The notes beneath the pieces were generated by a model that made no database searches, was not told the DNA's origin, and worked only from the letters and a program-made list of their open reading frames with translations. This document shows, piece by piece, positions 3,181-24,996 of a DNA stretch of 64,000 nucleotides; the first letter of the stretch is position 1; every line of letters starts with the position of its first letter. Location: assembly GCA_951799445.1 (NCBI GenBank), contig OX637291.1, positions 12,278,501-12,342,500 on the forward strand, given 5' to 3'. Position numbers and translations under genes: made by a program. Origin of the DNA: Pseudisothecium myosuroides. Taxonomy: Eukaryota; Streptophyta; Bryopsida; Hypnales; Lembophyllaceae.

Positions 3181-3261
3181 CTGAAATCAGAAATTTGCAA
3201 TCCCATGGACTTGACAAATACAAGTTCAAAAGCTAAATCACAAAATGAAGAGCTTTTTTAC

Positions 3262-3609: not shown

Positions 3610-3776
3610 CTGTGGCAAACATAGGAAGGAAATTCAGGTACGTATGCAATACAATGTGTTGTGCAATTGCTAACTTCTTCAATATCCACAACAAATAAAT
3701 ACATATTTATAAAGGGCAGCGGTTTGACAAGCACATGTTGTAGCACACATGAAGAGAAGGCCACGTCCTACAGCAC

Positions 3777-4767: not shown

Positions 4768-4836
4768 TGCAAATCCACATAAGCACATAACGACGAGGGT
4801 GAAATAACAACCACCAAGAAGAACACTAGAAATTAC

Positions 4837-5149
4837 GTGTGAGGCAGAGCACTCACTGGATCCGCATCCTTACGGACTAGTGAAGGAATGACTGCATCCG
4901 CCAAGGTTGCCGACGGAGGAATTTCAAGCTGCAAAATCGCGTCGTCCGGACTGCAGACTCTGGCCACCTCCTCAGCTAAAGACGGAACATCGTCGGGAAT
5001 TCCTGGCGAATCAGGCCGTGTGGGATGTGCAACACCTAAGTCTACCACTGATTCCTCATTCGCGGACAACGACAGAGTGCACACATTCCGGGGACTAGAT
5101 GGACGAGCACAACCAACAGCCAGATATTTGGAAGGAAGAGTGTCTGCGG
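4837..5149 (-). CDS. Candidate 5' exon of the FCP1-like gene
   Basis: An open minus-strand frame of about 100 codons begins after a good acceptor (GATTTTTACAG) and runs to a GTAATT donor at 4836. It is rich in Ser, Pro, Asp and Ala and has no recognised domain, like the disordered linkers next to many FCP1-like domains. The phase at the junction with the 4767 exon does not resolve cleanly with the first available acceptor (an in-frame TAG follows it), so either the second CAGTAG acceptor is used or the gene is damaged. Confidence 0.4.
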
Positions 5150-5193
5150 CTGTAAAAATCGTACACAAAAAGAGCTTTGTGAGAAAAAATATA

Positions 5194-5199
5194 TTTATT
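5194..5199 (-). promoter_or_regulatory. Possible AATAAA polyadenylation signal of the methylase-like gene
   Basis: AATAAA on the minus strand lies about 150 bases after the TGA at 5348 that ends the last exon of the ParB/methylase-like gene, and just before the FCP1-like candidate exon. Distance and orientation fit; the sequence is short and could be chance. Confidence 0.35.
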
Positions 5200-5347
5200 A
5201 CACAGTCTTGGAACGAGAAATAAATTTACAATATATACAACTTCAAAGTCTTCGCCCACCTATCTACCTGTAACTACGTAGTGCATCTTCAAGGAAATGA
5301 CGATAGACGATTCAGAAGGTTCAACTCGGGTCGAGTTGAATGAGAGG

Positions 5348-6283
5348 TCAGGGAAGGTCCTGGGAACCACCTGATTGGGTGTCTGTGAATGGATCCGAGG
5401 TCTGCTCAGGCAGAACCTCATCCAACTCGTGGACCTCCTCAGACACCTGATCCTCAAACACCTCGGCCTGGTCATCGTCTCGCTCATCCCCGCCCACATC
5501 TTGAAACTCCTCAGCCTGGTGAGCAACCTCAGGAATACCCTCCCCAGCATTGTCATCCGTCGATACTGGAGCAGGTGGTGCCGCCGGAGAACTCGAGACG
5601 TCTTGGATCATGGGGGCCGGTCTCAAGGTCCCTGCCTTCTGAGCCTTGATCTGAAGTACAGGAGACGGTGGAGCCTTCTGATGTGGCTGCTCCGCGTACT
5701 CAAAAATGACGCTCCTTACCAGGCTCTTCATGTAGGACATCATCTCCGCCTTGTCAGACTGTCGAGTTTGGTCCATCATAGCCTGCCACTTCATGAAATC
5801 CGACCCGCTGAACTCCACCGTCGCGTCCTCTCTCCTCCTCTTCGCCGGAACGCTTCGATTGGAAGTTGGAGTCACATTCACGTGATCCCCGGCAGATGCT
5901 AAGGACCCCCACATGAGGCTCGACTCCTGTCGGTTATCCAAATCCGGGAAAGCGGTCGGATGAGCAGCAATGACGGCATCCATTGGGTCAACCCATCCTT
6001 CCTCCTCCCCATCGCCTCCTTCCAAGTTGACCACCGTGTCCAGCAATACCATCTCTTGTGTTGCCTCATGTACTGGTGATGTCGCCCTCTCCTTTCCCTT
6101 TCTCGAGCGTGTTCCCTTCTTGCCGGGTGTCAACGGCGCCTTCTCAGGGTGGGCATGCTCGTCCACAAAATAGCTGGACTGAAGGAAGTCATCCTTGTCT
6201 AGATTTTCCGACTTGACAGCCATGTCCTGAAATTTTTCATGGAAGTCCGCGTCATCGATGGAGAAGTGATCCATGCCAGACAT
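5348..6283 (-). CDS. ParB/DNA-methylase-like gene, exon 3 (acidic C-terminal tail)
   Basis: The exon follows a clean acceptor (TTGTTTGGCAG) at 6284 in phase 0 and ends with TGA at 5348, giving 311 residues. It starts with MSGMDHFSIDD and contains a basic nuclear-localisation-like patch (KKGTRSRKGKERA, then AKRRRED), a short hydrophobic/charged helix (SDFMKWQAMMDQ) and an Asp/Glu-rich C-terminal third. No enzyme domain is recognised. Acidic tails of this kind are common in chromatin-associated proteins. A copy of the 21-bp palindrome begins 7 bases after the stop. Confidence 0.65.
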   Translation of the reverse strand: MSGMDHFSIDDADFHEKFQDMAVKSENLDKDDFLQSSYFVDEHAHPEKAPLTPGKKGTRSRKGKERATSPVHEATQEMVLLDTVVNLEGGDGEEEGWVDPMDAVIAAHPTAFPDLDNRQESSLMWGSLASAGDHVNVTPTSNRSVPAKRRREDATVEFSGSDFMKWQAMMDQTRQSDKAEMMSYMKSLVRSVIFEYAEQPHQKAPPSPVLQIKAQKAGTLRPAPMIQDVSSSPAAPPAPVSTDDNAGEGIPEVAHQAEEFQDVGGDERDDDQAEVFEDQVSEEVHELDEVLPEQTSDPFTDTQSGGSQDLP

Positions 6284-6635
6284 CTGCCAAACAATATATA
6301 ATTTAGTACTACAAATTTGAAGTTCAAGTCGGATCGACTTGACTGACCCAACATGAGAAATCCGGTACATTAAATAAGGTTTCAACTCGGACCGACTTGA
6401 ACATGGGAAATGGACAGAGCATACGAAGTTTAACTCGAACCGACTTGAATTTAAAAAGTAGACACTGTAATGGAATTTTAACTCGGATCGACTTGAAACA
6501 ACTATGCAATAAGTAAACTAACAAAGACAACGAACCAGCACATAACAAATGAGTCACACTCTGGTATCGCATGGACACTCGCAGTTTTCAACTTGACTCG
6601 ACTTGAAAGCAACCGATACAAGACAAAGAACCTAC
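6284..6635 (-). other. Intron 2 of the methylase-like gene, packed with five 21-bp palindromes
   Basis: The donor GTAGGT lies at 6635 directly after the TGG codon that ends exon 2, and the acceptor TTTGGCAG ends at 6284; both exons join in phase 0. In 352 bases there are five palindromes (6587, 6477, 6429, 6381, 6323), three of them exactly 48 bases apart, so dyads make up about 30 percent of the intron. Confidence 0.75.
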
Positions 6636-7991
6636 CCAGGCAGCATACACGAATTTGCCTCCGGCGAAAACGGAGAGGACATCGTTTCGGGAGTTGCAGA
6701 AGAGGTCAAGCACTCTGAGGTAGAACTCCATTCGGAGTTCCGTGTCATAGATCCGATACTCCAGCTCGTTGTACGACCCTGCCTTCGACCACTTGCCGTC
6801 CATCGGCACCTCAAATCTTCGCGGTATTGACCTGGGCTTAATCTGAGCACCTCTCTTAATAAGGAAGATGAGGTGCACGGGAGCCTTGGCAGCAGAAGAA
6901 TTCGGATTGAGGTCCATGAGGCGCTCTGTAGGCACGGCCGGGATGTACATTGCGTAGTGCGAGGTGTAGACGCCCGCCATCTTCCCCGTCTTGATGAATC
7001 CCCGCACCTAGTCATCCACCTCCTCGTCCCCGGTAATCCACAGCCAGACCTGCGGATCAGTGATGCATGGGTCGGTCAGCTGCAACGCCCTATCCATGAA
7101 TTCTTTGTAATACGGAGATTCCTTTGGGGCCGTGCTCTTGTACTTCACTCCCGGGATGTTGCGGAAGTCCAGCAGCGCAAGCTTGATAGAGCTCTTCATT
7201 GAGTCATCCCATGCCTCGGTGGCCCAAGACCCCATGACGTCTTCCTCGGAGTCATATGATCTCAAGTAAGCTCGAGCCTCGGGCTTCTTATACTTCCCTT
7301 TGCTCCTGAGGAATACCTTGAAGAATTCCGCAGCATAAGGCGACAACTCCTCGCACTTCTTATTCTTTGTGGATGGTCTCTTCACCTGGGAAAAAAACTC
7401 TTCCTTGGGACCCGTCAAGAGCAGTTGCTTCGTGGCCTGCGTGATGTCATACTTCCTCTTGAAAGCCTTCCAAGCATCTCGACGGTACGATCCTTTCGGT
7501 CCAAAGATTCCCAGGCTGCGCTTCTCAAGCCAGAGAAACTTCTTCACAGACCATTTCCTCTTGACTCTCTCCAGCCACTGACCCGAGTTGTAGCAATCGG
7601 GAATGACTCCCAGGACCTTCTTGATTGTCACCTTCGGATACGGAAGGGTTCTGTTGGGCGTCCTGTTGAAGAGGTGCAGAGCAAGTCTCTTTAGATCATT
7701 CTTAGTGGTGTTTCCCATCCACTTAAAGAACTCGCGGGAGAATGCACCGTCCTTCTCTTGGTCCCAGACCTTTGTATCCTTCATCGGCTTCAATGTTTCT
7801 GGATCGATGAGAAGCCCCTCTGTGTGCTTCGAAATAACCTCCTTCCACAAGTTGTGAACCTCATCGGTTGCAGTGATCAGCTTGATCTCGTTGTGGATGT
7901 CGAGTTTTTCAAGCTGCGCTCTATTGGCGGCGTCTTGGTTCTTCTTGACGTCGATCATGGCGAAGCGAAGCTTCATGGCGTCTTGAAATTC
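6636..7991 (-). pseudogene. ParB/DNA-methylase-like gene, exon 2 (methylase-like domain)
   Basis: The exon is flanked by clean splice sites (acceptor TTCGTGCAG, donor GTAGGT), phase 0 on both sides, about 450 codons, with one TAG at 7008 where TGG would read naturally. The second half resembles bacterial-type N4/N6 DNA methylases: a DPQVW segment in the place of the catalytic (D/N/S)PP(Y/W) motif, then a beta-strand/helix region, and at the end VLSVFAGGKFVYAAW, which matches the FxGxG AdoMet-binding motif preceded by the usual amphipathic helix (RMEFYLRVLDLF). The order catalytic motif then AdoMet motif is that of the beta class. The first half (Lys/Trp-rich) is not recognised. Known family: DNA methylases; substrate and activity are unknown, and the catalytic motif deviates. 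Confidence 0.6.
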
Positions 7992-8135
7992 CTGCACGAA
8001 ACTCGACAACGTCAAAAATCAGTCTTGCGGACGATTCAACTCGCATCGACTTGAACCAGAAAAAAGAGAAATTATGTGGAAGCAATGGCATAGACAAATG
8101 ATTCAAGTTGAATCGAGTAGAATGAAGTTACGTAC
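7992..8135 (-). other. Intron 1 of the methylase-like gene, with two 21-bp palindromes
   Basis: The donor GTACGT at 8135 and the acceptor TTTCGTGCAG join exon 1 to exon 2 in phase 0. The 144-base intron holds palindromes at 8102-8122 and 8035-8055. Confidence 0.7.
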
Positions 8136-9576
8136 ATTCCATTTCAGGGTCGTCGCTACATCAGTTGTGGTCTTCGGGTCCTTTCTCACAGTCGACCCCA
8201 CCTCTGTCGGCTCCTTTGGCGGAGGTGGACTGCCGAGGCTAATCCAGACATTTCTGGCACTGAGGATGTTGCTGGCCCAGGTCGGTTGGTAGTTCTAGAA
8301 GTGGTTGACTCGGTTGTACCATGCCGATATTTTCCGAATAATCCTGGCGTCCTTGTTCCAGACAACGTAGCACTCCCAAGTCTTGAATTTCTCGAACTTA
8401 GCCTCGTACCCGGGGAGGTTTTTCATCCTCTTGGCAGCCTCCACGCTGTGCTGCCCGTTGATCATCCAAAATTTTCCCGAGGCGACATCTATGAAGTCCC
8501 AGGCCGTTGAGTCAGTCCCTGAGGCATTGCACAAAGCGTCATCTTCTTCCTTGGGTCGGGCATCTCCAGGTAAAATTGGAGAGCCGACTTAATGCCCTTC
8601 TCTTCGAGGCAGCGGATGTTCAGTTCCGCTGGTGGGCTCTCGAGTTGGTCGATCGAGATCTCTTGGGACACTTCGACCCCGTCAATGTAGGAATCCGTGC
8701 ATTGTGACCAGTAGTCCTCGTAAATTTTCCTCAACTCCTCGTAGTTGACCTCCACCCGACTGTTCTATGCGTCTTTGGGAATTTCAGTGAGCGCGGAGAT
8801 CATGCTCTCTTCCTCCAGTTCCTTTGCTCTTTCCTCGGCATCAGCCTTGGCCTAAAGCTTCTTCCCCTTTGTTGGAGTTTTGTCCCGTGCCCCTCTTGCA
8901 TCGACGGCAATGGACTTACGCTTCGTCCGGCTCTTCTGCGTCTCTGCCGTGTTAACGACAAGAGACCCGTGACTAGCCCCTCCTGGTGTGTACTCCCTCG
9001 ATATCGCCATCGGTGCTAATTTAGCCTTGTTCTCCTTGAGCTTGTCTCGCTCATTCTCGAACCCCTTTAGAAGGTAGTTAAGCCGAGACAGGAGGACCTT
9101 GTGGGATAGTGGTCCTCCGTCCTTGCTGACCCACCTCTTGTTGTCGATGGCATTAATCAGGTTTGAGTGAACCCCCTTGTATGCTGAGTTTTCAAGGCTC
9201 CGGACTGTCATTGAGACTGAGTAAATAATATCCTTGGCGGGGATGAGGTAGGAGAACGCGTACTCCTTCACCTTGTCTGGGTCAACCGTCTTGCACGAAA
9301 CAATGAACATGTTGTCTGGACTAGTCTTGAACTCTGTCATAGACTTGGTCAGGGACACCGGCAGCGTTTCTTGGCAGTTTTTATACTTCGTCTTGAAGCT
9401 CAGGTGTCCTGTACACGGTGTGAGACAGATGCTCCAGCACTCTACACTCTCTGGCTCTTTCCAGGTCCAGCACTCTCCGAGGATGAGGTCATCGCCGAAG
9501 TCCTCCGGGTCTTCGTCCCCTTTGATGAGGAAACGCTTGAAGTTGACGTGGAGTTTAATCCTTTGCTCCTCCATAT
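8136..9576 (-). pseudogene. ParB/DNA-methylase-like gene, exon 1 (ParB-like N-terminal region)
   Basis: The start is the ATG at 9574, two bases after a canonical acceptor (TATATGCAG). The frame reads to 8136 with stops at 8852, about 8764 and 8295 and one single-base frameshift near 8537. Two segments look like the two halves of a ParB/sulfiredoxin-type fold: SYLIPAKDIIYSVSMTVRSL followed by a helix, near residues 105-125, and GKFWMINGQHSVEAAKRM, about 240 residues further on, followed by ECYVVWNKD and an IRKISAWYN helix. GQHxxEAA corresponds to the nucleotide-binding GERR/DGQHR box of ParB-like proteins. Between them is a Lys-rich charged insert. ParB proteins bind palindromic sites; here the helix-turn-helix part is not evident. 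Fusion of ParB-like and methylase domains is known in bacteria and phages. Confidence 0.55.
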
Positions 9577-11108
9577 CTGCATATAAAAGGTGCTTTATTA
9601 GATTTAAGTCGGGTCGAGTTGAACGACTAGTTTGATAAACTCGGGTTGACTACAGTACATGGTTCTGTTCTACTTCTCCATTTCAGTTCATGTCGGATCG
9701 ACATGGACCTTTTCATTTCAAGTCGGGTCGACTTGAATATCTTAGGGTCTCTGCTTTGTTTCTATAGTATCGTTCATGTCAACACGTGTTCATCTCGTAA
9801 TTTTAGTAGGTTAGAGGATCTGTTTTGTGAATGGTTTTTCGACAACTACTTGGTACGGATTAGTATTCAAGTCGACTCAACTTAAATTCCTATGCCTGAG
9901 TCTCTCCGCTGTTCTGATAATGGGTTGACTGGACATCAATATCACCTGATGTCTAACTCTAGTAAGGCGGATTGTTGGGATTTCAACTCGTAACGAGTTG
10001 AACGGGATTTTTCATCCGTCTGGACCTATTCGGGGGGATTCAGCTCGGGTTGAGTTGAACTGACTATAGTTTAACTGATGACTGAGCTTTGTGGACCCTG
10101 CTCAGTCCAACGCTTTCAATGGAATTCAACTTGGGTCGAGTTGAATTGCGCCTTAATGGAGCGCTGTGGTGTTTTCTTGAGTATTCTAGGGTTTCGGTCA
10201 ACTCGTTTCGTGCAGGTTTTGGGACTTTGTCTCTCTGGCTGATTGAGTTCAGGGAATGGGTCGGCTATGCCTGGTGATCTGTTTAACTCGACTCGAGTTG
10301 AACAGTGGGTTTGCGCTAGATAAGTCTTAGTTTCACGGACGGGTTTCGGTTTCTCTAGTTCAACTCGAGTCGAGTTGAATGGTAATCGTCCTCATTTTTG
10401 AGGCTTACGTTGGTTTAGGTGCACAATTTCTTTGATTCAACTCGATGCGAGTTGAATTACTGGATGGGGTCTGCGCTGTCCTTGCTTGTTGTGGGGGTTT
10501 TAGGGTCTGTTTCGAGTTGAATTGGCTTTGAGTTAAACAGCCTTCGAGTTGAACTGGCTTTCTCAATAAGGTCCAGCTGACTCTGATGAGGCTGTACTGA
10601 CATGCTACATTGTAATCTGAGAAAATGCAGTAACGTTTGCAGAACAGAACTAGCGTTCAGAATCTCAAAGAAACAGAACGAACTTGGAATGCAGATCAAA
10701 TGATATCCTGAATTGCTGCCTTTGGCAAAAGTAGCACGAGTTCTTCAAATTGGTGCTAAGAACCTGCAAAAGAATCCCACAGTCTGCTTACAAACAAGGA
10801 TTGCTAAATCGCACTGACAGTCACAGCAAAATTTGCATTGACCTTGACGGACACTCATACCCTAAACAAAATTGCTAAATCGGCATTCTCATTCACATGA
10901 GAATTACAATCCCTAAACCATGAACCTTCATCAAGAGCAGCAACATGAACAAGAGACAAGAACTTCAAGGTAAGGCAATGAAAAGAGCATCACATAATAA
11001 TCACAACAAACCACTATGAAATAACTAAATCCTAAACGATTTCATTAAACAAACACAGAAGTAATGAAAACAAGCACAAAAAAGGCAAAAGAAGTTTTGA
11101 GCAAACCT
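9577..11108 (-). other. Probable 5'-UTR intron of the methylase-like gene, with ten palindromes
   Basis: The acceptor TATATGCAG sits directly before the start codon. A plausible donor (CTCAG|GTTTGC) lies at 11108. Ten 21-bp palindromes lie at 9603-10456, all in the acceptor-proximal half and often 77 bases apart. The copy at 9687 has ATGTCG with CGACAT, so both halves changed together. Half-copies (TTCGAGTTGAA and similar) lie near 10512 and 10545. The same layout, a 5'-UTR intron filled with dyads just before the start codon, is found in the transposase gene. Confidence 0.6.
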
Positions 11109-11560
11109 GAGAACCGAAGCAGTCGCCCTCAAACAGGCAGCAGCTCGATCCGAGTTGCTTGAAACTTTCACCAGGAAACCCTGAGCAACAGATGCAGTAA
11201 CGAAAGCCCTCCCTAGTCTTCCTCACTGGCACTCAAATGACGGCCGCCACGAGGGGAAACTCCGCCGCACAGCTCACTCAGTGATGGCAACTAAGTCGGA
11301 AAATGCCACCCTCCTCGCCAAAAACAAACCTAAACACCCAAAACGTGACCTTCCCTACCAAAAACAAGCACTCACTTCTGACAATCGAATGCCACCGACC
11401 CAAAACGACGACGGAAGCAAGAGAGAGACACAAATCGCACACACAGAGTAGAACCCGGAGCGAAAAATGGCACACACACAGACAGCCGGACGCGGAGCGA
11501 AGTCGGAGAGAAATCAAGAGTCGGCGCGCCTAGGGTTTTTTAAGAGAGACAAAGCTCGGC
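11109..11560 (-). promoter_or_regulatory. Probable promoter and 5'-UTR region of the methylase-like gene
   Basis: The region is distinctly richer in G+C and CpG than its surroundings and lies directly upstream of the inferred 5'-UTR intron. Several short ORFs overlap on both strands with no family resemblance, so I do not call a gene. No clear TATA box is seen. Promoter status is inferred from position and composition. Confidence 0.35.
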
Positions 11561-11565
11561 TACAT

Positions 11566-11627
11566 GGCCAAGCGGCTTTAGGCCAAGCAGCTTTAGGCCA
11601 GGCGGCTTTAGGGCCAAGCGGCAATAG
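11566..11627. repeat. 15-bp minisatellite, 4 copies
   Basis: The unit GGCCAAGCGGCTTTA is repeated about four times with single-base changes, next to the CpG-rich promoter-like region. Confidence 0.75.
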
Positions 11628-11670
11628 GAGCATGCACGGGTAAAGGCTGAGGTCTGGGGTACAGCTATTT

Positions 11671-12690
11671 TTTTCATTTTTTATGAAGTGCGAAAGTGGC
11701 GTTATCAAATGTTATAGTAAGGTAGTATGGCCTAAAAGCGACCATTTAAGCCTTTTTCACAGGTTTCCTTGAACAGAAATATTTTTGGATCATTTTTCAG
11801 AGAAAGAAAAATGGATGCGGAACGTTATACAAGTGGTTTCATATTTTTTGAATCATTTTTGAATTACTTATGAATTTTCAAAAAAAACAGTTGTAGGCAC
11901 CTATTTGTGACCCTAGGTCTTCCAAAATCTGACCACTTGCAACTTCTAAATTGATATGAGTAAATGAAGGTCAATGATTGGCTCTTGCAATAAATTAAGC
12001 TTTTCTCTGGATTCTCTCAATGGCTTGAGAGGTCCATTTAGAGATCAACTAATGTCCATTTCAGTCCCAGATATAGGGTCGATTTGAACAGGCCGCTCGC
12101 TTTTAGAGCAGACTACCTTAGTGCTCCAAATTTAAGTATTCAACAACATATTGGACAGAGAATATCCAATTAGCACATATGACACGTCTCTAACTCTGTT
12201 TTTATTCACAATCTGGCAATTTCATCCAAGATTTTATTTTAATTTGAAGTTTTCTGGCGAAAAACTTTACCTTTTGTTGCCACTATTTAGCCAAATTATT
12301 TTTTTCTGGTGCAATCTGGCACTACAAAGCCCAGAAAAATACATTGGTGCTGAACGTCGTTCACAAACTCAATAAGAGGCCTTCATACTCTAAGTGACCC
12401 CATAATGGGGCCAAAGCTGTTATTGTGGGCTTTGTAGTGCCAGATTGCACCAGAAAAAAATAATTTGGCTAAATAGTGGCAACAAATTGTAAAGTTTTTC
12501 GCCAGAAAACTTCAAATTAAAATAAAATCTTGGATGAAATTGCCAGATTGTGAATAAAAACAGAGTTAGAGACGTGTCATATGTGCTAATTGGATATTCT
12601 CTGTCCAATATGTTGTTGAATACTTAAATTTGGAGCACTACTATAACATTTGATAACGCCACTTTCGCACTTTATAAAAAACGGAAGAAA
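11671..12690. mobile_element. Fold-back element with arms of about 265 bp, interrupted by a MITE
   Basis: The right arm, 12427-12690, read in reverse complement, matches 12121-12335 and, further out, 11671-11719. The left arm is therefore cut at 11719/12121 by a 399-bp insertion. The arms share identical stretches over most of their length, and apparent ORFs on opposite strands (12151-12375 plus, 12420-12608 minus) are the same sequence seen twice. The outer ends read near TTTTTTATGAAGTGCGAAAGTGG. It is probably a MITE or fold-back transposon without coding capacity. Confidence 0.85.
11720..12118. mobile_element. 399-bp MITE with TA target duplication, inserted in the fold-back arm
   Basis: The ends AGGTAGTATGGCCTAAAAGCGA and, inverted, AGGTAGTCTGCTCTAAAAGCGA form terminal inverted repeats of about 22 bp. 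TA precedes (11718-11719) and follows (12119-12120). Removing the element and one TA restores the exact sequence of the other fold-back arm, which proves the borders. The TA duplication suggests a Tc1/mariner (Stowaway-like) origin. Confidence 0.88.
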
Positions 12691-13887
12691 AAGCCGTTTT
12701 TAGAACATTTTTTGGCAAATTCATGAAAAACTAACGTGTAACTATTCATCTCTCACATTCTTTGTGAAAAGGGAATGTATTCTAAAATATTTTGACTTGC
12801 ACGAACTACTTTTACATTTTTGGAAGTCAGAAACTGTTAAGCCAACTGGTTACAAAGAGAAATGGTTTCCACGACGACTGTCTCACGGTTTATCTTGAAA
12901 ATTGCATCCTCGTTAGTATCTAAACTAGAAAATCATTGTTGTATAGAAATGCACTAATTAGAGGCCTTGTAGGGCAATGCAATGTTTTTTAACATTTTGC
13001 AAGTTTAAACTGCAATTTATACATATATAATTAGTTTTGTTGCTCATTATTTATGAACTTCACTCCTAAACAGAGGATATATGTGAAAAATTTTCTCCCC
13101 ATAAAGCTATTTTTCGGAAGTCACTTAGTGAATCACTGTAAACAACATACGTTTTCATTTTGGGCCCCTTGTTGCCTTAAATTTGTTTAAGTGGCTACTT
13201 TAAGAGACTTAGAACTTGAAATGGAGGTAGTAAGTTCGAGACTTTAGATGTTCATAGTTCAGGGTTTACGATATTTATATTAGTTATTAAGAGAACATAC
13301 CCTCTTTGTGTCCTCTAAAAGATACATTGTACACTGTCTTGAATTTAATGTGGGCCATTATATACATTTAGGAAAATAGTGACTTCGCAACTCACAAAAA
13401 TCTGTCTTCGAAGAATGTGTGTAGGCTAATTTGTTATTAAGAAAACATACCCGCTTTTTTTACTCTAAAAGATACATTGTACATTTGAATATAATGTGGG
13501 GCATCATAAATTTATTTTTTTTAATTATTTTTTTTCAACTTCACAAAAAAATGTAGTGTACTTGTCAAAATTATGAAATTACTGAAAAATGCTTTATTCT
13601 TTAAAAATCATATGAAATTTCAAAAAGTGTGCCATAAATTCGTCGTGCTTATCAACTCAAATTGTTTAGAATATTTCCAACTTGTACAAATTTTTATTAC
13701 TTGTCTTCTTTTGAATAGGAGTGTCATGACTTTCTAGATTTACTATCTATAAACTAAAATGAAGGCATGAAATAACCTTCTTAGGTTATGTAGCAAATAA
13801 CACAATTAAAAGAGAAAATGAATGTGGCCACAATTTTGAAAATGAAGTGTAGAATACTTCTAACGTTGACATGATATTTTTTTCCAT
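12691..13887. other. Noncoding AT-rich stretch with a diverged tandem duplication
   Basis: No gene is seen. Two diverged copies of a segment containing AAAGATACATTGTACA and AATATAATGTGGG-like sequence lie at about 13280-13370 and 13432-13510. Confidence 0.45.
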
Positions 13888-14274
13888 ACCCACGTGCACT
13901 TATTTTAGGAGTCATGAAATGATGGTTCTCTTAAATACAGGGCAATCAATGGCCTTGTTTTTTGGCATTCCTAAACCCCATTTAAACAAATGGGTGACAA
14001 ACTTAATGAGGCCACATGTTTGGAAGTTAAATTTTAGAATATTTTCAACTTCTACAATATTTCCTTTTTCCATTTGCCATTAAATTTTATCAAATTTAGA
14101 ATTTGGTTCCACGAACATCTGAGCAGGGCTAACTTGTTTATATTTCATTCTGTTTCTCTTATTTGAATAAGAGGCAAGAATTTAATTGCCACATGAATTA
14201 TAGTTGTTTTAATTTTAAAAATGAGGCCTACATTTAATGACCTTGTCAATTTTAAATGTTTCATGACATCCTAG
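13888..14274 (+). repeat. 387-bp direct repeat, left copy
   Basis: The sequence from CCCACGTGCAC to GACATCCTA recurs at 19039-19425 in the same orientation. By eye only three base differences separate the copies. The ends are not TG...CA and no primer-binding site follows, so a simple LTR pair is not supported. Confidence 0.85.
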
Positions 14275-15557
14275 AGCTCCCAATTTGTCACTTGGGACTC
14301 GTAGAATTATTTTTTTGGAAATTTGCAATTTAAAGTTGATAAAAGTATAGAAAAATCCATAAAAAGAGTGTAGAACCAAAATAGGGTTGTGTCATACCTA
14401 TTATAGTATTTGGTCTAGATTTGTGTTTTTTACTTAGAATCCCCCAAACCTTGCCTAAAAATAGTATAGAAATAACAAAAAGGTTAGATTTGGAGGATTC
14501 GAGTCACACAGCCCCAAAAGGGCTAAATCCCCCCATGAATGTGGCGATTCATGGCTAGGTCGGTCCGAGGGATCCACAGCGAGGCCACTAGGTCGGGTCC
14601 TAGAGTTAGATTTAGAATTCCCCATTAGATCGACAAATTCCCAAATCCCGATCGTTAGCATGTAGGAGCCACTCACGCAAGACCGGGCCCGTGGAGGAAT
14701 CTACAACCCAAGGATGGTGTTCTAGGGTGAATCCCATGCCAAGAGTCCAACGGCGAAATCGGTTCGCCAAGATTCCTCCACCCGCAGAAGATTCCCGCAC
14801 CGTCGCTAATTCAAGGAGATGTCCAGTTAAATCTCCATTGACCAATCGTGCCAAGTACGGAAACACACCCGCACGTCTTTCATGCGACTCCCTGAGAGGT
14901 CACGTGAAAAATCCCGGCATCTTCCGACTTGCAGAAGAACCTTTTTCCGGGTGGTCAACCCTCCTAACCTCCAACGGGAATTTCATGGAAATTATCCAGG
15001 TTACAATAAAATCTCACTAAAAATTAGACTAGCTCGTTTTATGTTAATAATGCGCTCCGTGAAGTTTCACGACATTCCGATAGCGGCAAGTACCCGAACC
15101 GGCGAGATTCCTCGGGAATTAACCACGTGGCGAGGTCCTTGCCATGTTGACCGGCATTCCGGGACCATACGATGGCGAAACGAAGTCAACCAAAAGTCCT
15201 TCCCGACTCTCTCGCACCTACCGGAGACCCTAGGCTATTCACATTTCTCAAAATAGGAGACCCCCAAGATCTAGGATTTTACTACGATTTGGTTTTTAAA
15301 CTAAATTAGCCTATGATGGGTTTTTGGCCTCGGTTCGGGGATAGGGGGATTTAAGACTAAACACGGCGTTCTAGATCCAACGGCGCAATCCGTTCGGCGA
15401 TTGGAGCTAATCTCCAAAAGTTAGGATGTTGGTCCAGCATAGATGGTAGAAGTAGAAATTTAGGATGTAGGATGAAAATCTTTGAGGATGAGGATGAAAA
15501 TCCCCGTTGATAAGGTTACCTTAGAGCTTTAGAGAGAGGGGTGAGCCCTTGGGAAAC

Positions 15558-15572
15558 CTATATAAGGGCCCC
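15558..15572 (+). promoter_or_regulatory. TATA-type promoter with pyrimidine-rich initiator region
   Basis: CCTATATAAGGGCCCC is followed after about 15 bases by TTTCTCTCTCTAAAACACC, a pyrimidine patch common at plant transcription starts. Downstream sequence is not protein-coding over any useful length, so this could be the promoter of an LTR or of a noncoding transcript. Confidence 0.5.
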
Positions 15573-15984
15573 ATTTCTCTCTCTAAAACACCCCCTCACT
15601 TTTGTTTGGGTCCGTGGGTCCAAGTTGCTTTGGATATTTTGGCGTTTGAAGCCAAAAACCTCTATGGTATTTTTGGAGCACTTTTTGCTCCATTGTTGCT
15701 AGATTTCAAGCTTTGAAGGTCCTTGGGGGTCCTTCTATCTTGCCTTGTGTACTTCTCGTGCGTTTGTTATATCCTTGTTACGAGTTAAGAGTCCTTGTTC
15801 TCTCTTGTTGTACCCTTGTGAGCTAACTTGTGAGTTTAGGAGTCTTTTGGGGTCGTGTCCTAATCTTAAAGTCACCCCCCACCGTACCTTGGCGATGCCG
15901 CTTTAGGAGGCCTTTAGCTTGTGAAGTTGTGTGTCTTTACGTGTACTAAAACGTGTGTTTTCCTTACTTATGTGTCCTCACCCC

Positions 15985-16205
15985 CTTCTAATCTTTCCCT
16001 TGTTGCATGGACCCCCCCTCGGGACGGCGAAGCTTTGGCTTTGTCACACGTGTTTCTAAGTTTGTCTTTTTATCTTCTTCTAATATCCCCCTTGTTGCGT
16101 GGACCCCCCCTCGGGACGGCGAAGCTTTGGCTTTGTCACACGTGTTTCTAAGTTTGTCTTTTTATCTTCTTCTAATATCCCCCTTGTTGCGTGGACCCCT
16201 CAAAT
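15985..16205 (+). repeat. 91-bp tandem repeat, about 2.4 copies
   Basis: The unit starts near TTCTAATATCCCCCTTGTTG and includes GGACGGCGAAGCTTTGG and CACACGTGTTTCTAAG; copies start at about 15986, 16077 and 16168. Further diverged GGCGAAG(C/T)TTTGAA echoes continue to about 16350. Confidence 0.8.
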
Positions 16206-16557
16206 CGACGGCGAAGTTTTGAACTAGTAACAACGTCAAGTCCTACAGTGTGTGTTAAAATACTCTTAGGCGGCGGAGCTTTGAACCCATGGAGTGTCGC
16301 AAGTCCTAAAGTTGGTGTTAAACCCGATTTTACGGCAAAGCTTTGAACCTCCATAGCCTTAGATTCCAAAGTCTAGTTTCCAAGACCTTTGTGAAAACCT
16401 CCAGAGTTTAGCTTCCAAGAGATGTAAGTTCCTTTGTACTTATCAAGTGTAGTGTCTTCCCAAAGTTTATCTAGTTTAGTTGTTTCCCAGGGTCTTAGTG
16501 AGTTTAGTACCCCCAAGGTTTTATTTCCCCCTAGCCTTAAAATAGCCTTAGCAAAAT

Positions 16558-16630
16558 TTCAATCCCAACCAGCAATCCCAACCAACATCCCAACCAGCGA
16601 TCCCAACCAGCATCCCAACCAGCATCCCAT
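16558..16630 (+). repeat. Short minisatellite (AGCATCCCAACC type, about 6 copies)
   Basis: A 12-13-bp unit, CAGC(A/G)ATCCCAAC, is repeated about six times, followed at 16690-16745 by three CAGGCTCCGGTGG-like units. Confidence 0.7.
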
Positions 16631-17337
16631 CAGAAAGAAAATAAAAAAAAGATTTTTTATTTAAAACCCGACCCCCCCAGCTAGCCAGCCGGGAAGGGCC
16701 AGGCAGGCTCCGGTGGCAGCAGGCTCCGGTGGGCAGCAGGCTCCTCCAAAATTTTGATTCCTTTTTTTTGTCTCACGTTTTGGTTCTCTCAAACCAGAAC
16801 ACGAACAAAGATAAAGCAAACTCAAGGAATGTTGGGCTAATTAAGTGCTAAGCAGGGGTGAAGCAGAATTAGGGCCAATACAAAAATACGAAAGGGAGGA
16901 GGAAGAAGAGAGCGGAGCACCACCGTACCTGCACACGAAAACGGTCTCTATCACCACTCCCACTTACACACAATGGAAGGAAATTAGGGAGAGGGATGTG
17001 TTATAGGAGTGAAAAGGAGAGAGACGATGAATAGTGCCTAGCTAGGAGATTAGGTAGGAAATCTAGAAGAACTCCTTGCAACCGTTGGGAGGAAGATTAG
17101 GATGACACAAAGCAAGGTTGCGTAAGAGGGTAGGAAAGAACAATTAAGCCCTTCTCGTAGTTTGAAACCATAGTGTAAGACCCATAAAGGCTTAGGTGGA
17201 ATAGTGCTAGTGTAGAAGAAAGAGGAAGAAAGAAAAGAAAGGAGGAAGGGAAAGAGGGAGTTTAGATCATCAAAATTGTAATATTTTCTCAATAAGCGGT
17301 GAGCTTGGAAAAAATTCAAAACAAAGCCAAAGACTAC

Positions 17338-17401
17338 CATGGAGCGTGAGGATGTACACGTGGACATGGACGAAGTCATTTCCGACACCGGTAGTGAAGA
17401 G
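17338..17401 (+). CDS. Short exon-like start: ACCATGG context, acidic peptide, GTAAGT donor
   Basis: ATG in a strong ACCATGG context opens about 21 codons (MEREDVHVDMDE, then an acidic end) running straight into GAG|GTAAGT, a textbook donor. No following exon is recognisable in the purine-rich tract behind it. This may be the first exon of a captured gene or of a retroelement; evidence is thin. Confidence 0.25.
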
Positions 17402-17439
17402 GTAAGTTTTTGATTTAATCTTTGATGTTTCTCCCTAAT

Positions 17440-18720
17440 TAGCCTTCATTGTCCTAATCTACCCTTAGAGCGTGATTAGCATCCGAGATTAGTGTAAATT
17501 AGAAGTTTAGATTCAAAAGTTGATAGATTAGGAATAGAGGTTTCCGAAAACATCTTATAATTAAGATTTGACCGTAAACTGACCGCGTTAGGCTAAGTTA
17601 AGCGGTAAGGGGTAGAACGGAGGAATTTTAATTAAATTTGATCCACAAGGAACAATGGACGGAATTTAGGATTAGATTAGAAGGAGAATTTAAGATTAAA
17701 ATTAGGGATTAATTAGCAGGTAGAATTAGAATCAATTTACACTTTTACTTTTTAAAGTTAAACTTCTAAGGTCAAAATCTAGAGTTAACTTTGGGAAGTT
17801 AAAAAATAGAATTAATTTAGAACTTAACCTAGGGGTTTCAACTCTCAAGTCAAATCTTAGGGTAGGTTCATGTAAGAGTTTAGAAGTTGATTAGGGAGTC
17901 AAAAATTAGAGTAGAAATAGAGGTCAACAGTAGAATTGAAAATCAACTTAGGAAGTAGATTTTTGAGTTAGGAATAGAGTAAAAAGTAGAAGTCAAAACC
18001 CTAGAGTTAAAAGTTGGAATTAAATTTAGGAGGGTAACATCTAGAGTTAATCCAGGATTAAAACAATAGGATTAAATTTGGAAGGGGAAGTCAAAAGTCA
18101 AAAGTCAAAAGTCAAAAGTCAAAAGTTTAGATTAAATTTAAAGGTTAAATTTTAGAGTCAACTGGGGAGTAAAAGGTTAGAGTCAAAAGCTAAAAGTAGA
18201 AGTTAAAACTTAGAGGTAGAAGTTAAATTTTAGAGTTAGTTGGAAGTAGAAAAAATCTAGAGTCAAAGTGAAAACGTAGAGTCAAACCTAAAGGTTAAAA
18301 TTGGGAATTAATTTTGGAAGTAAAAATTTAGAGTTAAAAGTCAAAAATCTAGAGTTAAATTAGGAATAAAAATCTACAATAGAAAGTGAAAAGTTAGAGT
18401 TAACTTTAGAGGGTAAATCTTAGAGTAGTTTGGAATTAAGAACATAAAATTAAAAGTGAAACTTAGAATTACCCTAGAAGGTTAAAACTTGGAAGTTAGG
18501 AGTTGAAAGTAAAACTTAGAGTCAAAAGTTAAAACATAGAATAGAAGTCGGTAGTTAATACTTAAAGCCGAGTTAAAAGGGTAAAAGTCTGGAGTTTCAT
18601 TTAGAGGTTGAAAATTAGAGTAAGAGTTGGATTTTAGAATTAGTCTTTAGAAGTAGAACTTCTAGGTGGAGTCTTAAAAACCCACAATAGTCTTAGAGGT
18701 TCATGGAAGGAACATAGGGG
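17440..18720 (+). repeat. Purine-skewed degenerate repeat tract (AGAGTTAAAA/GTCAAAAG-like)
   Basis: For nearly 1.3 kb the plus strand consists of variants of words such as TAGAGTTAA, AAAAGTTAG and GTCAAAAG, with C scarce. At 18091-18127 a 7-bp unit, GTCAAAA, is repeated five times. No frame is open. The pattern suggests slippage-driven expansion of a short unit followed by divergence. Confidence 0.65.
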
Positions 18721-19038
18721 TTCCCCTTTTTACGTAGTTAGGAACGTTAGAAATGACGCCAACTACCCAGTCTACCCTCGACATAGGATAGATAGTTAGG
18801 GAGTTAGAATTTCACCATTACCCCTGAGCATTGCAGTTACCTTGTGAGTTACTACATGCATTCTAATTATTCGCTGCCATCCACGACCCTTAGGAAACGT
18901 TAGCAAAAAAGATCCATTGCTTGGAAGGCACAGTGGACCGCGCTCACAACACCCCCATATATTAAAAAAGTGGATAAAGGCATAGAACCTGGTCGGTGTT
19001 CGCTCTATTACCAAGGGTGGGTAATCTTGTGCCCACAC

Positions 19039-19425
19039 CCACGTGCACATATTTTAGGAGTCATGAAATGATGGTTCTCTTAAATACAGGGCAATCAATG
19101 GCCTTGTTTTTTGGCATTCCTAAACCCCATTTAAACAAATGGGTGACAAATTTAATGAGGCCACATGTTTGGAAGTTAAATTTTAGAATATTTTCAACTT
19201 CTACAATATTTCCTTTTTCCATTTGCCATTAAATTTTATCAAATTTAGAATTTGGTTCCACGAACATCTGAGCAGGGCTAACTTGTTTATATTTCATTCT
19301 GTTTCTCTTATTTGAATAAGAGGCAAGAATTTAATTGCCACATGAATTATAGTTGTTCTAATTTTAAAAATGAGGCCTACATTTAATGACCTTGTCAATT
19401 TTAAATGTTTCATGACATCCTAAAC
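19039..19425 (+). repeat. 387-bp direct repeat, right copy
   Basis: Near-identical to 13888-14274. A more diverged relative (GAGGCCTACATTTAATGACC) appears again at about 20748, so the unit belongs to an older family. Confidence 0.85.
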
Positions 19426-19485
19426 CTACACATTTTTTGAAGACTTCCTTATAAAAATTTCATAAATTCAAAGACTTGTACATTA

Positions 19486-20060
19486 CTCCCTCTGTCCCAC
19501 CCTAAACCTCCAAATCAAGCACAATATTTGTCCTACTAAAAAGCTGCTTTTCTAGATTTCGATTGTTGGATAAGTGTTGTCCGTGTTGAACGACCTCGTG
19601 GTGGCAAGTCAAGTGATTAGGGAGCATTCTTCGCCAAGAAAGCTTGGCCTGGCCCATATGAGATACCTTCGACTTGTTTTGCTTCCTTAGACAATAGTAT
19701 TAACAATCATGGATTTGGTGACCACTTCGACACTTTGAAGAGTTGTTCTTGAAGTGGTGCAAGGATCTTTGTTGTGAATATATAGGGTGCACTAGATGTT
19801 TCTAGAATCCCAATGTTGCTACTAACATTTAAATCATCAAAAATGATGGAGCTGGCAGCGGTTACAGATTTTGTCGAAAATGGTACTTTCCGCATGGAGT
19901 TTGGGTGCCTAAACAATGGTGAAGGAATTCGAGATTTTGCAGAGATCTAAAGGATGGGTTCTTAGTTTTCAAATGCATATATCCCTGTCCTAAAAACTGA
20001 AAAACGTCGTTAATCTCTCCTAGGGAACCTTTTTGGAGGTTTTTAGTGGGACTAAGGGAG
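19486..20060. mobile_element. Stowaway/mariner-like element of 575 bp
   Basis: The terminal inverted repeats CTCCCTCTGTCCCACC and, inverted from the right end, CTCCCTTAGTCCCACT extend into ACCTCC on both sides, with TA before and TA after. CTCCCT-C-GTCCC ends are typical of plant Stowaway MITEs and mariner-like elements. Short ORFs inside show no clear transposase motif, so it is probably a deletion derivative. Confidence 0.75.
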
Positions 20061-20062
20061 TA

Positions 20063-21405
20063 GTTTTTAAGCCCGCGCTTGAACTTCATACATTAAAAAT
20101 CCCAGAAGTCATGAAGTTTGTTAAAAAGCGGAATGAGTATAAATTATTAAAGCTACAAATAGCTTGAACATATAGAATTCATGATGACCTTTAGTTCTTC
20201 CTGTTTGTAGGCATTCTGAAACGAGACTTGAGTTTTTCCTATTTAAAGAAATGCGCACGTTTAGAATAATTGCTCATCGAGAATCCATGTGCGGATTGCA
20301 TTTTTGCACCTTATTTATCATAGAGAAATAAAACAAAAAGGCCCTCCAGTTAGTGGAGAACCATAGCGTGACACTCTTGAAATAAGTGCAGGTGTGTATG
20401 GAAAATATTCATGTGCATTTCTTTTACAATTTGCACATTTTTTTCCTCCAACGCTTGCCATTTCATTGCATAATAGTTGATATTCAAATTCAACTACTAC
20501 AACACATGGTTTATTCTTAATTTTTAATTTCTCTAACATTAGTAAGACCCTAAAATTCAATCCCCACATGCATATTTCATGTGGGGATTGTTTTATTAGA
20601 ACTTCCACATTTTTTTCCCTCTTCCATTCACCTTTTCGTTTCGTGACATTTTGGATCGACTTCCACTAAGTATAGGCCATGGCTTCTTCAAATTCGTTTT
20701 CAATCTTTTTCATATATATTTTGGACTATTGAAGTCAAATTTGGAAAATGAGGCCTACATTTAATGACCTCCTGAACTTTAAATATTCACGACATTTGCA
20801 AACATGTAATAATACATGCACTTTCGAACTTCATATATAAATTTATTGAAAATGTTGACATCTAGAATGAGTGAATTGAATTATTTCTACTTCATGCCAG
20901 TTGAAACGAAGTTTCGTAAAGAAGGAATTGCATGAAGCATAGAATGATGCTCATAAATTTCAAATTTACCTCCATAATGTTAACACTTTCTATGAATCTT
21001 GACAAAAATAGTCCTTGAAAGTACAAGACGCAAATTCTAACTCATGTTCACTGATATGTAGATTAGTGTGAGTTTAAAAAGTATGTTTATGGCATTTCAT
21101 GCTGGCATGCCTTCTGTATGGTTGTTTGGAAAGTTCTGGATTTCAACATTTTTTTTCACAGAATGTTTTCACTAACTACTTCAACATTTTGGAAAGACAT
21201 TTTTTTTCCAATTCGTCTGATAGGAGTTTTTCACTAACAATTACCTTTGTTGAATGACTTCCACGCCATTCCCTATAGTTTGTGGACATCAACCCCGAAT
21301 GTTATGGAATTTGTTGGCATGTGGACGGAGAAAATTGTGGAAGAAGTAAATGTTCTCAACATGTAGGTTCGACACACACATTCAATTGCTACACCATTTT
21401 CTTAA
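20063..21405. other. Noncoding AT-rich stretch
   Basis: No gene is seen. It contains the diverged relative of the 387-bp repeat near 20748 and otherwise unstructured AT-rich sequence. Confidence 0.4.
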
Positions 21406-21407
21406 AG

Positions 21408-22090
21408 CTACTAAAAAATATCACGCCATCACTTAACTAGCTCCCCATTTTTGTTTATCACAAGCTAATTCCAACTCCATCATAAAAAATATCACGCCAT
21501 CACTTAACTAGCTCCCCATTTTTTTTTAGAACAAGTGAATCCTAACTCCATCATCAAAAATATCACTCCATCACTTAACTCCCTCCCCATTTTTTTTTAT
21601 CACAAGTGAATCCCAACTCCATCATAAGAAATATCACTCCATCACTTAACTCCCTCAGTCCCCAATTTTTTTATCACAAGCGAATCCCAACTCCATCATA
21701 AAAATATCACTCCATCACTTAACTCCCTCCCCATTTTTTTTATCACAAGTGAATCCCAACTCCATCATAAAAAATATCACTCCATCACTTAACTCCCTCC
21801 CCATTTTTTTATCACAAGTGAAACCCAACTCCATCATAAAAAATATCACGCCATCACTAAACTCCCTCCCCATTTTTTTTTATCACAAGTGAAAGCCAAC
21901 TCCATCATAAAAAATATCACTCCATCACTTAACTCCCTCCCCAATTTTTTTATCACAAGTAAATCCATACACAAATATAAAAAAATTCAATCCATGACTT
22001 AGTATTTGAATCCATTCCCTCCCCATTTTTTTTATCACACATGAATTCTAACTCAGAAAATAAAAAATGTCACTCCATCGTTTAATTTCT
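21408..22090 (+). repeat. 70-71-bp tandem repeat, about 9 copies
   Basis: Units contain ATATCAC(G/T)CCATCACTTAACT, CCCTCCCCATTTTTTTTATC and ACAAGTGAATCCCAACTCC. The word ATCAC(G/T)CCATC recurs at 21420, 21491, 21562, 21633, 21706, 21776, 21845 and 21916, then the array decays. Length changes come mainly from the T-run. Confidence 0.9.
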
Positions 22091-22895
22091 AAATGCCCAA
22101 GACCTTTTTTGAGTCTCTAGGAATTTGCTGTAAACTGAACAAAAAGCCCAGTTTTTGATATGTTGTATCAGTTCTTTTTGAATTGTGACCGTACAAATTC
22201 AAACTAGACATGTTAGAGATCACAAAGGAAAACAAAACACAACAATATCACTTATGGATTGAAAGATTACAATGTTGGATCATGAGGGTGCGAAAACTAA
22301 GAAAATTTTTCAATCTTTTCTTCACAAGTCGATTCTAAAAATTTGTTCATCCAAAATATAAGAGGTTTAAGTGTTACCATGCATAACGTAAGTCAATTTA
22401 TGGCTACTCTAGAATTTTTTTAAATGAATTTACAATGTGATTTTTGTCAAAAATCTAGAGTATTTGAGGCTCATTTCCAAGAGTTCAAAACAATACAGAA
22501 AGTGAAGATTACGATGGATACCCTTGCCCAAAACCTTCAATACAGAAATCATAGTCAATCATTTGCATAATGGCATTATTGATGCTGAAACTGGACTTTA
22601 GAACTAGTTTTACAGAAATAAAAACTATTAAAGAGAACCACTTCGTTAGGATTTCTTTAGTTTCAAAGTATTGTAGACATTGGAATGTGGTGCCTAGGGC
22701 ATTTAGGGGTAAATATTTGGTTTGACTGTCTCTCCAATTTTGTAATTTACATGCATGAAGTAGGATGTGCAAAAGTCTCATACTGCTCAAAAATATATTT
22801 CATCAATAAATGAGTACAACTTCTACAGATTCTTGATCCCATAATGTTCACCTACATTCTTCGACATTTTTCAATTGCACTCAAAAAAAAGGATC
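22091..22895. other. Noncoding stretch between the tandem array and the telobox cluster
   Basis: Nothing recognised; a 93-codon minus-strand frame at 22509-22790 has no family resemblance and ordinary AT-rich composition. Confidence 0.35.
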
Positions 22896-22901
22896 TTGGA
22901 C

Positions 22902-22990
22902 CCTAAACCCCAATCAGTGAACCCTAGATCCTAAGCCCTAATTAACCCTAAACCCTAAACCCTACAGAAGCCCTACCTGACCCTGAATCC
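22902..22990 (+). promoter_or_regulatory. Cluster of telomere-like CCCTAAA/telobox motifs
   Basis: ACCCTAAACCC, AACCCTAGATCC, AGCCCTAATT, AACCCTAAACCCTAAACCCTA and further CCCTA words occur in about 90 bp. This matches the plant telomere unit TTTAGGG in reverse, and teloboxes (AAACCCTA) are known promoter elements in plants. It lies about 700 bp upstream of the inferred 5'-UTR intron of the transposase gene, so a promoter role is possible; a relic of interstitial telomere sequence is the alternative. Confidence 0.5.
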
Positions 22991-23379
22991 TACGGAACCC
23001 CTACTAGAATCAAAATTAAACAACTGTAGCACCATCCTCTATTTTTGCGCATCATTATTTTCAGCGATATTTTCAACGTCACTACAAAGTAGCCTAGTAT
23101 TCCCCCAAAAGTAGTTCTAAGCGTCTCCAACTGTAAAATGATAAAAGAAAAAAGAGGAAAAAATACAAAATATATGATACGTCGAATGACTATGACTAAA
23201 GCCCACCCACGTACTATCCAGACCTAAAGAAGGACTGCATCCACTTTTCTGCGCAGAAATTCTCTTGCCTTTAATACCGAATGCGGCCACTTGTCAAGAA
23301 AGAAGATTCCTTCTAAATTCTGCCCGGAGACTTATGCCCAAAGCCATTTGAAATTCCCGCCCAGATTTTCCCGCCCAAG

Positions 23380-23640
23380 CGCGCTGCCTCCCTCCTCTCC
23401 TGCGAACTAGTCCACTGTCCATTTGCCTACTCGTCGTTTCGTGCTTGTGTTTCCGTCGTCCATAGTTGATGGTCATTTTGCTCTCGCGTTACGTCTAGTT
23501 CTTGTGTGGTGTCTCTTACTTGCGTTGTGTCTCTTACGTCGGTGGAGTGTCGTTCGTATGTTGCGGTTCTTTCATTTTGAGTGACAAGGTTCTGATAGTT
23601 TGAACGTCACGATTTCTCAGTTGCAGCGTAACGTACTCGG
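23380..23640 (+). promoter_or_regulatory. Probable 5'-UTR exon of the transposase gene
   Basis: A G+C-richer segment with repeated GTGTCTCTTAC(T/G) words ends at a strong donor, CTCGG|GTAAGT, at 23641. The matching acceptor GTTTGTGCAG lies at 24991, five bases before the transposase ATG. Confidence 0.45.
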
Positions 23641-24991
23641 GTAAGTACTATTGATGTGTTCAGTAAGCCGTTTGAATGATTTCTTCTCAGTCTTGATGTC
23701 TGACACTGGTGCATTAGTATAGTATTGTACGGGATTGAACCTGAATGCAATGATTGTCATCGTTGTGTGTCGTTCCTGTTCTACTGTCAATGGTGGTGTT
23801 GCTCTTCTTGAATGGCAATGGCTTTTGAAAACTGATTTGAGGAAGCTCCGATAAATGCGCCGTGTTTTATGGAAGTACAAAGTGCATGGAGGTGTTCACA
23901 GTTTCTCCTTAGTAGGACGCCGTCGACTTCAAGTCGGTTCGAGTTGAAGGCAGATATTATCGTACAAATTTCAGCCACTGGAGGGAAATCTGTTCAGGTC
24001 GAATTGACATGAAATGAAATGTCTTAAAATAATGAAGTTGATCAACTCGATCCGAGTTAAATCACATCAGAACACTCAATTGTGAATCTTACCTTTGTCC
24101 ATTCAAGTCGACTCAAGTTGAACTACTGTGAAACTGACAAGTAATACTTATGAGAGACAGTTAGGTTTTCAACTCGACTCGACTTGAAGTGATCAATCAT
24201 GAACATAATGTGGATGCATATTGACCGCCAATGGATGAGAGAAATACGGAAGTGTATTCTTCTTGTTCAACTCGATGCGAGTTGAACATACTTAGACCTC
24301 CGAGTAGGGTCTCCAATTACCATGTTCTGGATTCAAGTCGACTCGACATGAATTTTATGTACTAAATTAATGGGGATGGAATTAACCTAAGTAGCATACC
24401 ACAAATTTGTGTATCATGATGCTCAGTTGCCTCAGTTCAAGTCGATGCGAGTTGAATTATTAATTACTTTAGATGTCAGATACTCTAAAGTACGTCGGAA
24501 ATTTGAGTTCAGTGGACTACATGTCCAGTTCTGGTTGTCCAAATCATAAATCTTGATGTCATCTGTTCAGTTTAAGTCGATGCGAGTTGAAGTATTTCTG
24601 CTCAATTTTATCATTCATGTCTCGCAAATACCGAATTCATCAGACGATCCAAAAACCAATATCCGAAGACCCGAAACCATCATTTCACTTTGGATTCTAC
24701 GAGAATTATAATTAATTAAGAAAAGATACATAGGAAGTCGTTTCTCAGTCATTCATTATTTTATACTATGTATTGTTGTGGCCACATTATGGGGTAATAG
24801 TTATTTTGTTGATTCAGTCTCTTTACCTTGACTACGATCTTCAAAATTACTGGAGACTATTTGTGTTTGATGTCTGCGATCATTCAAGTCGAGTCGACTT
24901 GACTGATGTCCACAGTTGTGTACTTCAGTTGCAGCATGGTTCCTTCAATTTTTTGTGGAAGGGGATGTGGCAGTCGTGATTGTTTGTGCAG
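23641..24991 (+). other. 5'-UTR intron of the transposase gene, with nine 21-bp palindromes
   Basis: Donor GTAAGT, acceptor TTTGTGCAG. Nine dyads lie between 23928 and 24903, spaced 50 to 310 bases apart. This mirrors the dyad-filled 5'-UTR intron of the methylase-like gene on the other strand and suggests co-regulation of the two genes by one factor. Confidence 0.6.
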
Positions 24992-24996
24992 TCATC

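Follow-up and report, generated by a model that had tools for sequence, protein, structure and literature searches.

The closest described counterparts of the system treated here are the VANDAL transposons of Arabidopsis, for which family-private motif arrays and a fast-changing element gene have already been described. In the published accounts, the VANC21 motif occupies introns of VANC21 and VANB21 as well as the region upstream of VANA21 (PMC5735166), differs from the VANC6 targets and multiplies in tandem repeats; the VANC21 and VANC6 motifs count 9 and 8 bases, respectively, with that of VANC21 arrayed in a single orientation, and protein and target are suggested by the authors to have coevolved (PMC5735166; PMC10398659). 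Here, we analysed a 64,000-nucleotide stretch of the moss Pseudisothecium myosuroides (assembly GCA_951799445.1, contig OX637291.1, positions 12,278,501 to 12,342,500, forward strand; henceforth the window), which holds a 26,653-bp transposon. Like VANDAL, this element carries in its non-coding DNA an array of a motif that is specific to the family, with copies in introns and upstream of where transposase coding begins; in both cases, the motif differs between related families and often stands in tandem repeats. It differs in its host, in that its motif is a 21-bp palindrome or dyad (i.e., two 9-bp arms around three variable bases, a 9-3-9 geometry), and in that the candidate binder has predicted ParB and methylase folds.

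Bacterial ParB-parS systems share with it a ParB/sulfiredoxin (Srx) fold and dispersed palindromic sites, while the setting here is a eukaryotic transposon with introns, with NGQHSVEAS in place of the GxRRxxA-type signature and with methylase motifs that look degraded. In En/Spm, the element protein TnpA binds many short subterminal copies within the element; the present element likewise contains many short repeated sites, but none near its ends. Sola2 transposons have 4-bp target-site duplications (TSDs), short terminal inverted repeats (TIRs) and a large transposase (PMC3627910), and it is in these features that the element resembles them, while being much longer and carrying ParB/pseudo-methylase and FCP1-like genes.

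On the evidence below, we hold with moderate confidence that the dyads are the sites of a dimeric protein of the element family, likeliest the ParB/pseudo-methylase, that keeps the ParB and transposase genes on. No report of this system was found in the open-licence literature (subscription papers and preprints being outside the scope). If true, the same strategy would have arisen independently in another kind of transposon and with proteins of other descent, and recognition of one's own family might then be a widespread means by which transposons counter silencing. The diverged half-sites on one fixed geometry also form a ready-made set for studying specificity change in a dimeric DNA reader, and may be of use for sequence-specific epigenome tools.

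A conserved dyad array in the introns of two element genes

Searching the window for TTCAASTCG-NNN-CGASTTGAA with up to three mismatches yielded 28 dyads versus 0.10 expected from 100 shuffles, none of which gave more than one. A first-pass annotation, made from the letters of the window without database searches, had reported 27 copies and suggested a comparison with shuffled intron sequence; the array is borne out, the count is one higher. The features concerned are as follows.

5320..5340, no strand: dyad after the stop codon of the ParB gene, from the window pattern search
5350..9576, minus strand: ParB/pseudo-methylase gene, broken (stops, frame break), coding exons about 8136-9576, 6636-7991 and 5350-6283
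6284..6635, minus strand: ParB-gene intron 2, 352 bp, five dyads
7992..8135, minus strand: ParB-gene intron 1, 144 bp, two dyads
9577..11106, minus strand: predicted ParB-gene 5′ intron region, possibly more than one intron, upstream limit approximate, ten dyads (9603-10456)
23641..24934, plus strand: transposase-gene 5′ intron, 1,294 bp, ten dyads (23928-24903)
24935..27830, plus strand: putative transposase gene with a DUF7869 domain (Pfam E 2.7e-44), broken, gene end approximate

All but one of the 28 dyads thus lie in predicted introns or the 5′ intron region, the remaining one following directly on the stop codon of the minus-strand gene. The earlier counts for the ParB gene (ten, two, five and one) stand, and the nine given for the transposase intron become ten. 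Introns 1 and 2 of the ParB gene and the transposase 5′ intron, all predicted from sequence, have GT...AG ends. No dyad fell within the coding sequence counted in the window (7,614 bp, the open reading frame of the FCP1-like gene included), in agreement with the annotation's description of that gene as dyad-free. Exact half-sites paired at a spacing of 3 bp only (51 pairs, versus none at spacings 0-2 and 4-11; the loci counted partly overlap). Moreover, the 28 sites share 84-87% pairwise identity in their arms versus 26% in their 20-bp flanks, indicating that they are not recent duplicates of one another.

Orthologous elements carry the dyads as well, and their absence from such elements, named beforehand as an outcome that would tell against the proposal, did not occur: 34 of 34 loci (four of which overlap) hold 2 to 8 dyads at up to three mismatches. 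In an alignment of 27 copies to the window (some truncated and lacking intron 2; two loci, L028 and L034, excluded as divergent), mean column identity was 0.804 for the dyad arms, 0.638 for the remainder of introns 1 and 2, and 0.767 for the exons. Substitutions at A/T positions, which are free of CG decay, amounted to 0.076 in the arms, 0.206 in the introns and 0.108 in the exons, and CG retention to 0.69, 0.37 (6 sites only) and 0.58, respectively. The dyads are under selection, and it is strongly implied by these sequence comparisons that they are recognised sites. Exon transitions at C:G positions were more frequent in CG (0.158) and CHG (0.130) than in CHH (0.083) contexts, which is the pattern expected from decay of methylated DNA.

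Subfamily-specific half-sites and their genomic distribution

Members of the ParB gene fall into subfamilies whose identity to the gene in the window spans about 100% to 39%. A search of the fetched members for 9-3-9 palindromes, with the letters at positions 5-9 left free, gave the following half-sites.

A: TTCAASTCG; 18 ParB-gene sites, 10 transposase sites
A2: TTCAAGTAG; 4 ParB-gene sites, one locus
B′: TTYAACTCG; 14 ParB-gene sites, 14 transposase sites
B: TTTAWCTCG; 17 ParB-gene sites, 9 transposase sites
C: TTCACCT(C/T)(G/C); 22 ParB-gene sites, 27 transposase sites
D: TTYAGCGCG, or T at position 7; 7 ParB-gene sites
E: TTYAGGTCG; 12 ParB-gene sites
F: TTYAGCTCG; 10 ParB-gene sites (two resemble chance palindromes), 4 transposase sites

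Chance would account for 0.2-2.0 sites per locus in the loci tested, and second copies of B, C and D kept their half-site types. Site numbers are higher in the ParB gene than in the transposase gene in A, B and F, equal in B′ and lower in C. Wherever covered, dyads occupy matching places (i.e., the 5′ intron, introns 1 and 2, the position after the stop codon, and the transposase 5′ intron); the post-stop dyad recurs at the corresponding place in the B, B′, D2 and F loci and was not seen in the C loci. The 9-3-9 geometry is constant across subfamilies, and each family-specific change is present in both arms. Since both half-sites change alike between families, the reader is likely to be a dimer, and half-sites that differ between most subfamilies while being shared by both arms and both genes fit a dimer encoded by the element. 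Recognition by an element-encoded protein, as the first-pass annotation had conjectured, is thereby strongly, if indirectly, supported.

The F subfamily itself was turned up by the D-type pattern, and the single F locus fetched (1/1) proved to contain dyads where they were expected, along with both genes, the transposase at 59-63% and the ParB gene at 51% to D. Across the five subfamilies with both genes, the true pairing of ParB-gene and transposase-gene site profiles outperformed all 119 other pairings overall. Furthermore, among eight subfamilies, the distance between motifs tracked that between ParB proteins (Mantel r 0.55, a value reached in 124 of 40,320 permutations).

In the 388-Mb genome, the exact A-type motif occurs 256 times, and the B, C and D/F patterns 221, 675 and 77 times, versus none for the reversed control of each. 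Placement was determined for 50 of the 256 A-type sites: for 39 of those listed, a match to the ParB gene or the transposase stands no more than 20 kb away, where about 1.9% would be expected, and the gene matches are themselves lower bounds (the best 120 of 464 candidates for the ParB gene and the best 59 of 1,266 for the transposase). One of the remaining eleven belongs to an A copy (L001), which over 3 kb is 85% identical to the element in the window. The ten sites left, together with four unplaced sites out of 50 listed B-type ones, fall in nine stretches, each of which (9/9) carries at least three related dyads. One of these is another A copy (L053), one is similar to the transposase 5′ intron region (L052; 65% over 413 columns), one adjoins a divergent transposase (L058), and one holds a dyad cluster with no gene found within 5 kb (L056); the clusters L052, L054, L055, L057, L059 and L060 were examined within the fetched stretches only. 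Occurrence at similar density in unrelated introns, which had likewise been named as speaking against the proposal, did not occur, the listed exact sites being in or resembling element copies.

L054 and L055 (C2:9.57-9.58 Mb), about 9 kb apart, are mirror images of each other, each an array of eight dyads with steps of mostly 69-86 bp, beside a 93-bp stretch resembling the 3′ end of a B-family ParB gene.

The candidate reader and competing explanations

The ParB/methylase-like gene gave no meaningful Pfam match. Three B and two C exons of it, searched at E up to 1, gave weak unrelated matches only, NCBIfam a single weak unrelated match, and a PDB sequence search with two protein profiles nothing meaningful. 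VANC proteins are characterized by DUF1985, which was absent from the Pfam matches of those five exons. Nor was a MULE-type transposase such as VANA found, as DUF7869 was the sole Pfam match of the transposase open reading frame at E up to 0.1. By Pfam, with neither a MULE nor a VANC domain, the element is therefore not a VANDAL.

Structure models support, by fold, a ParB/sulfiredoxin domain followed by a helical middle and a beta-class DNA-methyltransferase fold in the predicted product, and hint weakly at an N-terminal PH-like region. The folds named in the first-pass annotation are hence upheld by the models, while the methylase catalytic motifs look degraded. Beta-class amino-methyltransferases carry the catalytic motifs (D/N/S)PP(Y/F/W) and FxGxG; neither was found in the methylase-like stretches of the family, which have DFRxxP and F(A/G)G-K at the places that correspond in order and in strand position. 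Methylation of the dyads by the ParB/pseudo-methylase is unlikely given this apparent degradation, and the methylase-like fold, with its catalytic motifs lost, may instead read DNA.

The ParB/pseudo-methylase is our candidate binder because it combines putative DNA-reading folds with sites in all its introns, and an output of anti-silencing or activation is suggested by the parallel with VANDAL21. The dimeric protein would bind the dyad arrays in its own introns and in those of the transposase gene, and binding would keep both transcription units open and expressed. It would also mark copies of the same family while sparing other families, with half-site shifts in most subfamilies keeping each family's system private. 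In a bolder and doubtful version, a phage-derived ParB clamp would operate in a plant nucleus, loading at parS-like intron dyads, spreading along the element and excluding silencing, with up to eight private specificities in one genome. Among viral proteins, the third fold match to the methylase-side model was a phage protein named ParB/Sulfiredoxin (E 6.9e-4, with a TM-score of only 0.27), and searches for relatives gave 197 pattern matches in viral contigs and one in genome contigs, none of them confirmed.

Several observations weigh against recognition by the ParB/pseudo-methylase or against its proposed effect. ParB proteins bear a nucleotide-binding signature of the GxRRxxA type, which is altered here to NGQHSVEAS, with NGQH invariant in 24 sequences and the paired Arg absent, and a parS-type reading head was not identified in the ParB-gene product. 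Exon CG decay shows no drop towards the dyads (0.169 in the nearest positions, 0.146 in the farthest), so that no footprint of local demethylation or protection from methylation is seen. Taken row by row, the true gene pair is the closest in three of the five subfamilies only (A, B and C), the B′ ParB sites being marginally nearer to the transposase sites of A, and those of F likewise marginally nearer to those of B. The B′ ParB protein is 53% identical to A (B: 51%), yet its sites are nearly A-type, and the 3′ site in two B loci remains A-type. Shared descent could lie partly behind the Mantel result. Finally, divergence of the FCP1-like gene (51% to B, 40% to C) is as rapid as that of the ParB gene, and the transposase N-terminus is variable as well (55-64% to a Ceratodon homologue whose overall identity to the B query is 71%); rates alone therefore do not name the binder.

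That same N-terminus lends some weight to the notion that the transposase itself binds the dyads, as an autoregulatory or synapsis array, and its gene was found in all five subfamilies for which the region was fetched (A, B′, B, C and F). We regard this as possible though unlikely: the TIRs and the outermost 2 kb on each side are free of dyads, the arrays being internal and intronic, and the main body of the protein shows 71-79% conservation when A is compared with the B and C families, whose half-sites differ. Those listed homologues of a B-family transposase that bear an organism name come from two mosses, Ceratodon purpureus (up to 71%) and Physcomitrium patens (up to 62%), in line with a moss as host; no literature on DUF7869 was found.

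Host factors often bind palindromes, and a host DNA-binding protein might use the dyads. However, several subfamilies within one genome have different half-sites, which the two genes of an element tend to share, and the sites examined sit in element-like clusters, making a host reader quite improbable.

With all but one of the 28 window dyads inside predicted introns, and the exception directly behind a stop codon, the dyads are probably transcribed, and could act as RNA hairpins (in introns and 3′ ends) that control splicing or transcript fate. Against this, arm changes were one-sided in 149 cases, complementary on both sides in 13 and non-complementary on both sides in 7 (counted in the 160 of 196 aligned copies that passed a homology filter; 220, 24 and 27, respectively, without it). 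Imperfect palindromes are kept imperfect across copies (e.g., the site at 8102), and the S bases of the two arms are mismatched in 12 of the 28 window sites. Both the frequent disagreement of the S bases and the independent variation of half-sites had been anticipated by the annotation. With one-sided changes outnumbering complementary ones, an RNA hairpin is disfavoured, and we rate it as very improbable.

Functionless selfish amplification by tandem duplication and gene conversion would suit the regular C arrays (units of about 60 and 67 bp) and the 115-bp steps of the B transposase arrays, but is scarcely credible for A sites with conserved arms, unrelated flanks and uneven spacing in the window, and for a geometry maintained across families less than 50% identical in protein.

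Element boundaries and further features

The binding of the dyads by the ParB/pseudo-methylase would take place within an element delimited as follows.

2024..28676, no strand: whole element, 26,653 bp, with 25-bp imperfect TIRs (AACA..ATATTCATTA...TGGGAG both ends), from copy alignment breaks and TIR alignment
2020..2023, no strand: left 4-bp TSD, TTAA
28677..28680, no strand: right 4-bp TSD, TTAA
3777..4763, minus strand: FCP1/NIF-like phosphatase gene, the third gene, without such dyads (Pfam NIF E 2.6e-14)

The element thus contains a plus-strand DUF7869 gene and two minus-strand genes, FCP1/NIF-like and ParB/methylase-like. Alignment of two other A copies with the window starts at 2024 and stops at 28676-28677. 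Just outside the element, inverted repeats of about 344 bp (1665-2008/28892-29236) are 96-99% complementary; they were rejected as element ends, given that the other copies break at 2024 and 28676-28677, and it appears that another repeat served as the insertion site. All three copies examined have 4-bp TSDs, i.e., TTAA in the window and CTGT and TCTT in the other two, by which piggyBac, with its TTAA-only target, was rejected. Both the ParB and the transposase gene are broken in the window copy; copies with open frames in the searched exons are present elsewhere in the genome. At gathering thresholds, Rfam gave no match.

Within the element, a 390-bp direct repeat (13884-14273 and 19033-19422; 99% identical) flanks about 4.8 kb that is perhaps a nested insertion with duplication, and a near-perfect 221-bp inverted repeat with an 80-bp loop (12119-12640) is perhaps a fold-back element. 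FCP1-type phosphatases have a DxDx motif, at the position of which the FCP1-like protein reads DLNG or NLNG in the A, B and C families (window 3777-4763; L041; L051:525-1340); judging by these residues, it may be another non-catalytic enzyme copy.

Four predicted proteins (P0076, P0079, P0093 and P0095) have in-frame FNS[TI]RVE or FSSTRA[DG] tails past the exon end that resemble A-type and D-type dyads, and from these tails intron 1 seems to begin with a dyad in other species too. By hand count, about 48 of at least 122 ParB-gene matches lie on one 16.9-Mb contig (C11) that makes up 4% of the genome and is possibly a sex chromosome, or else a chromosome rich in repeats.

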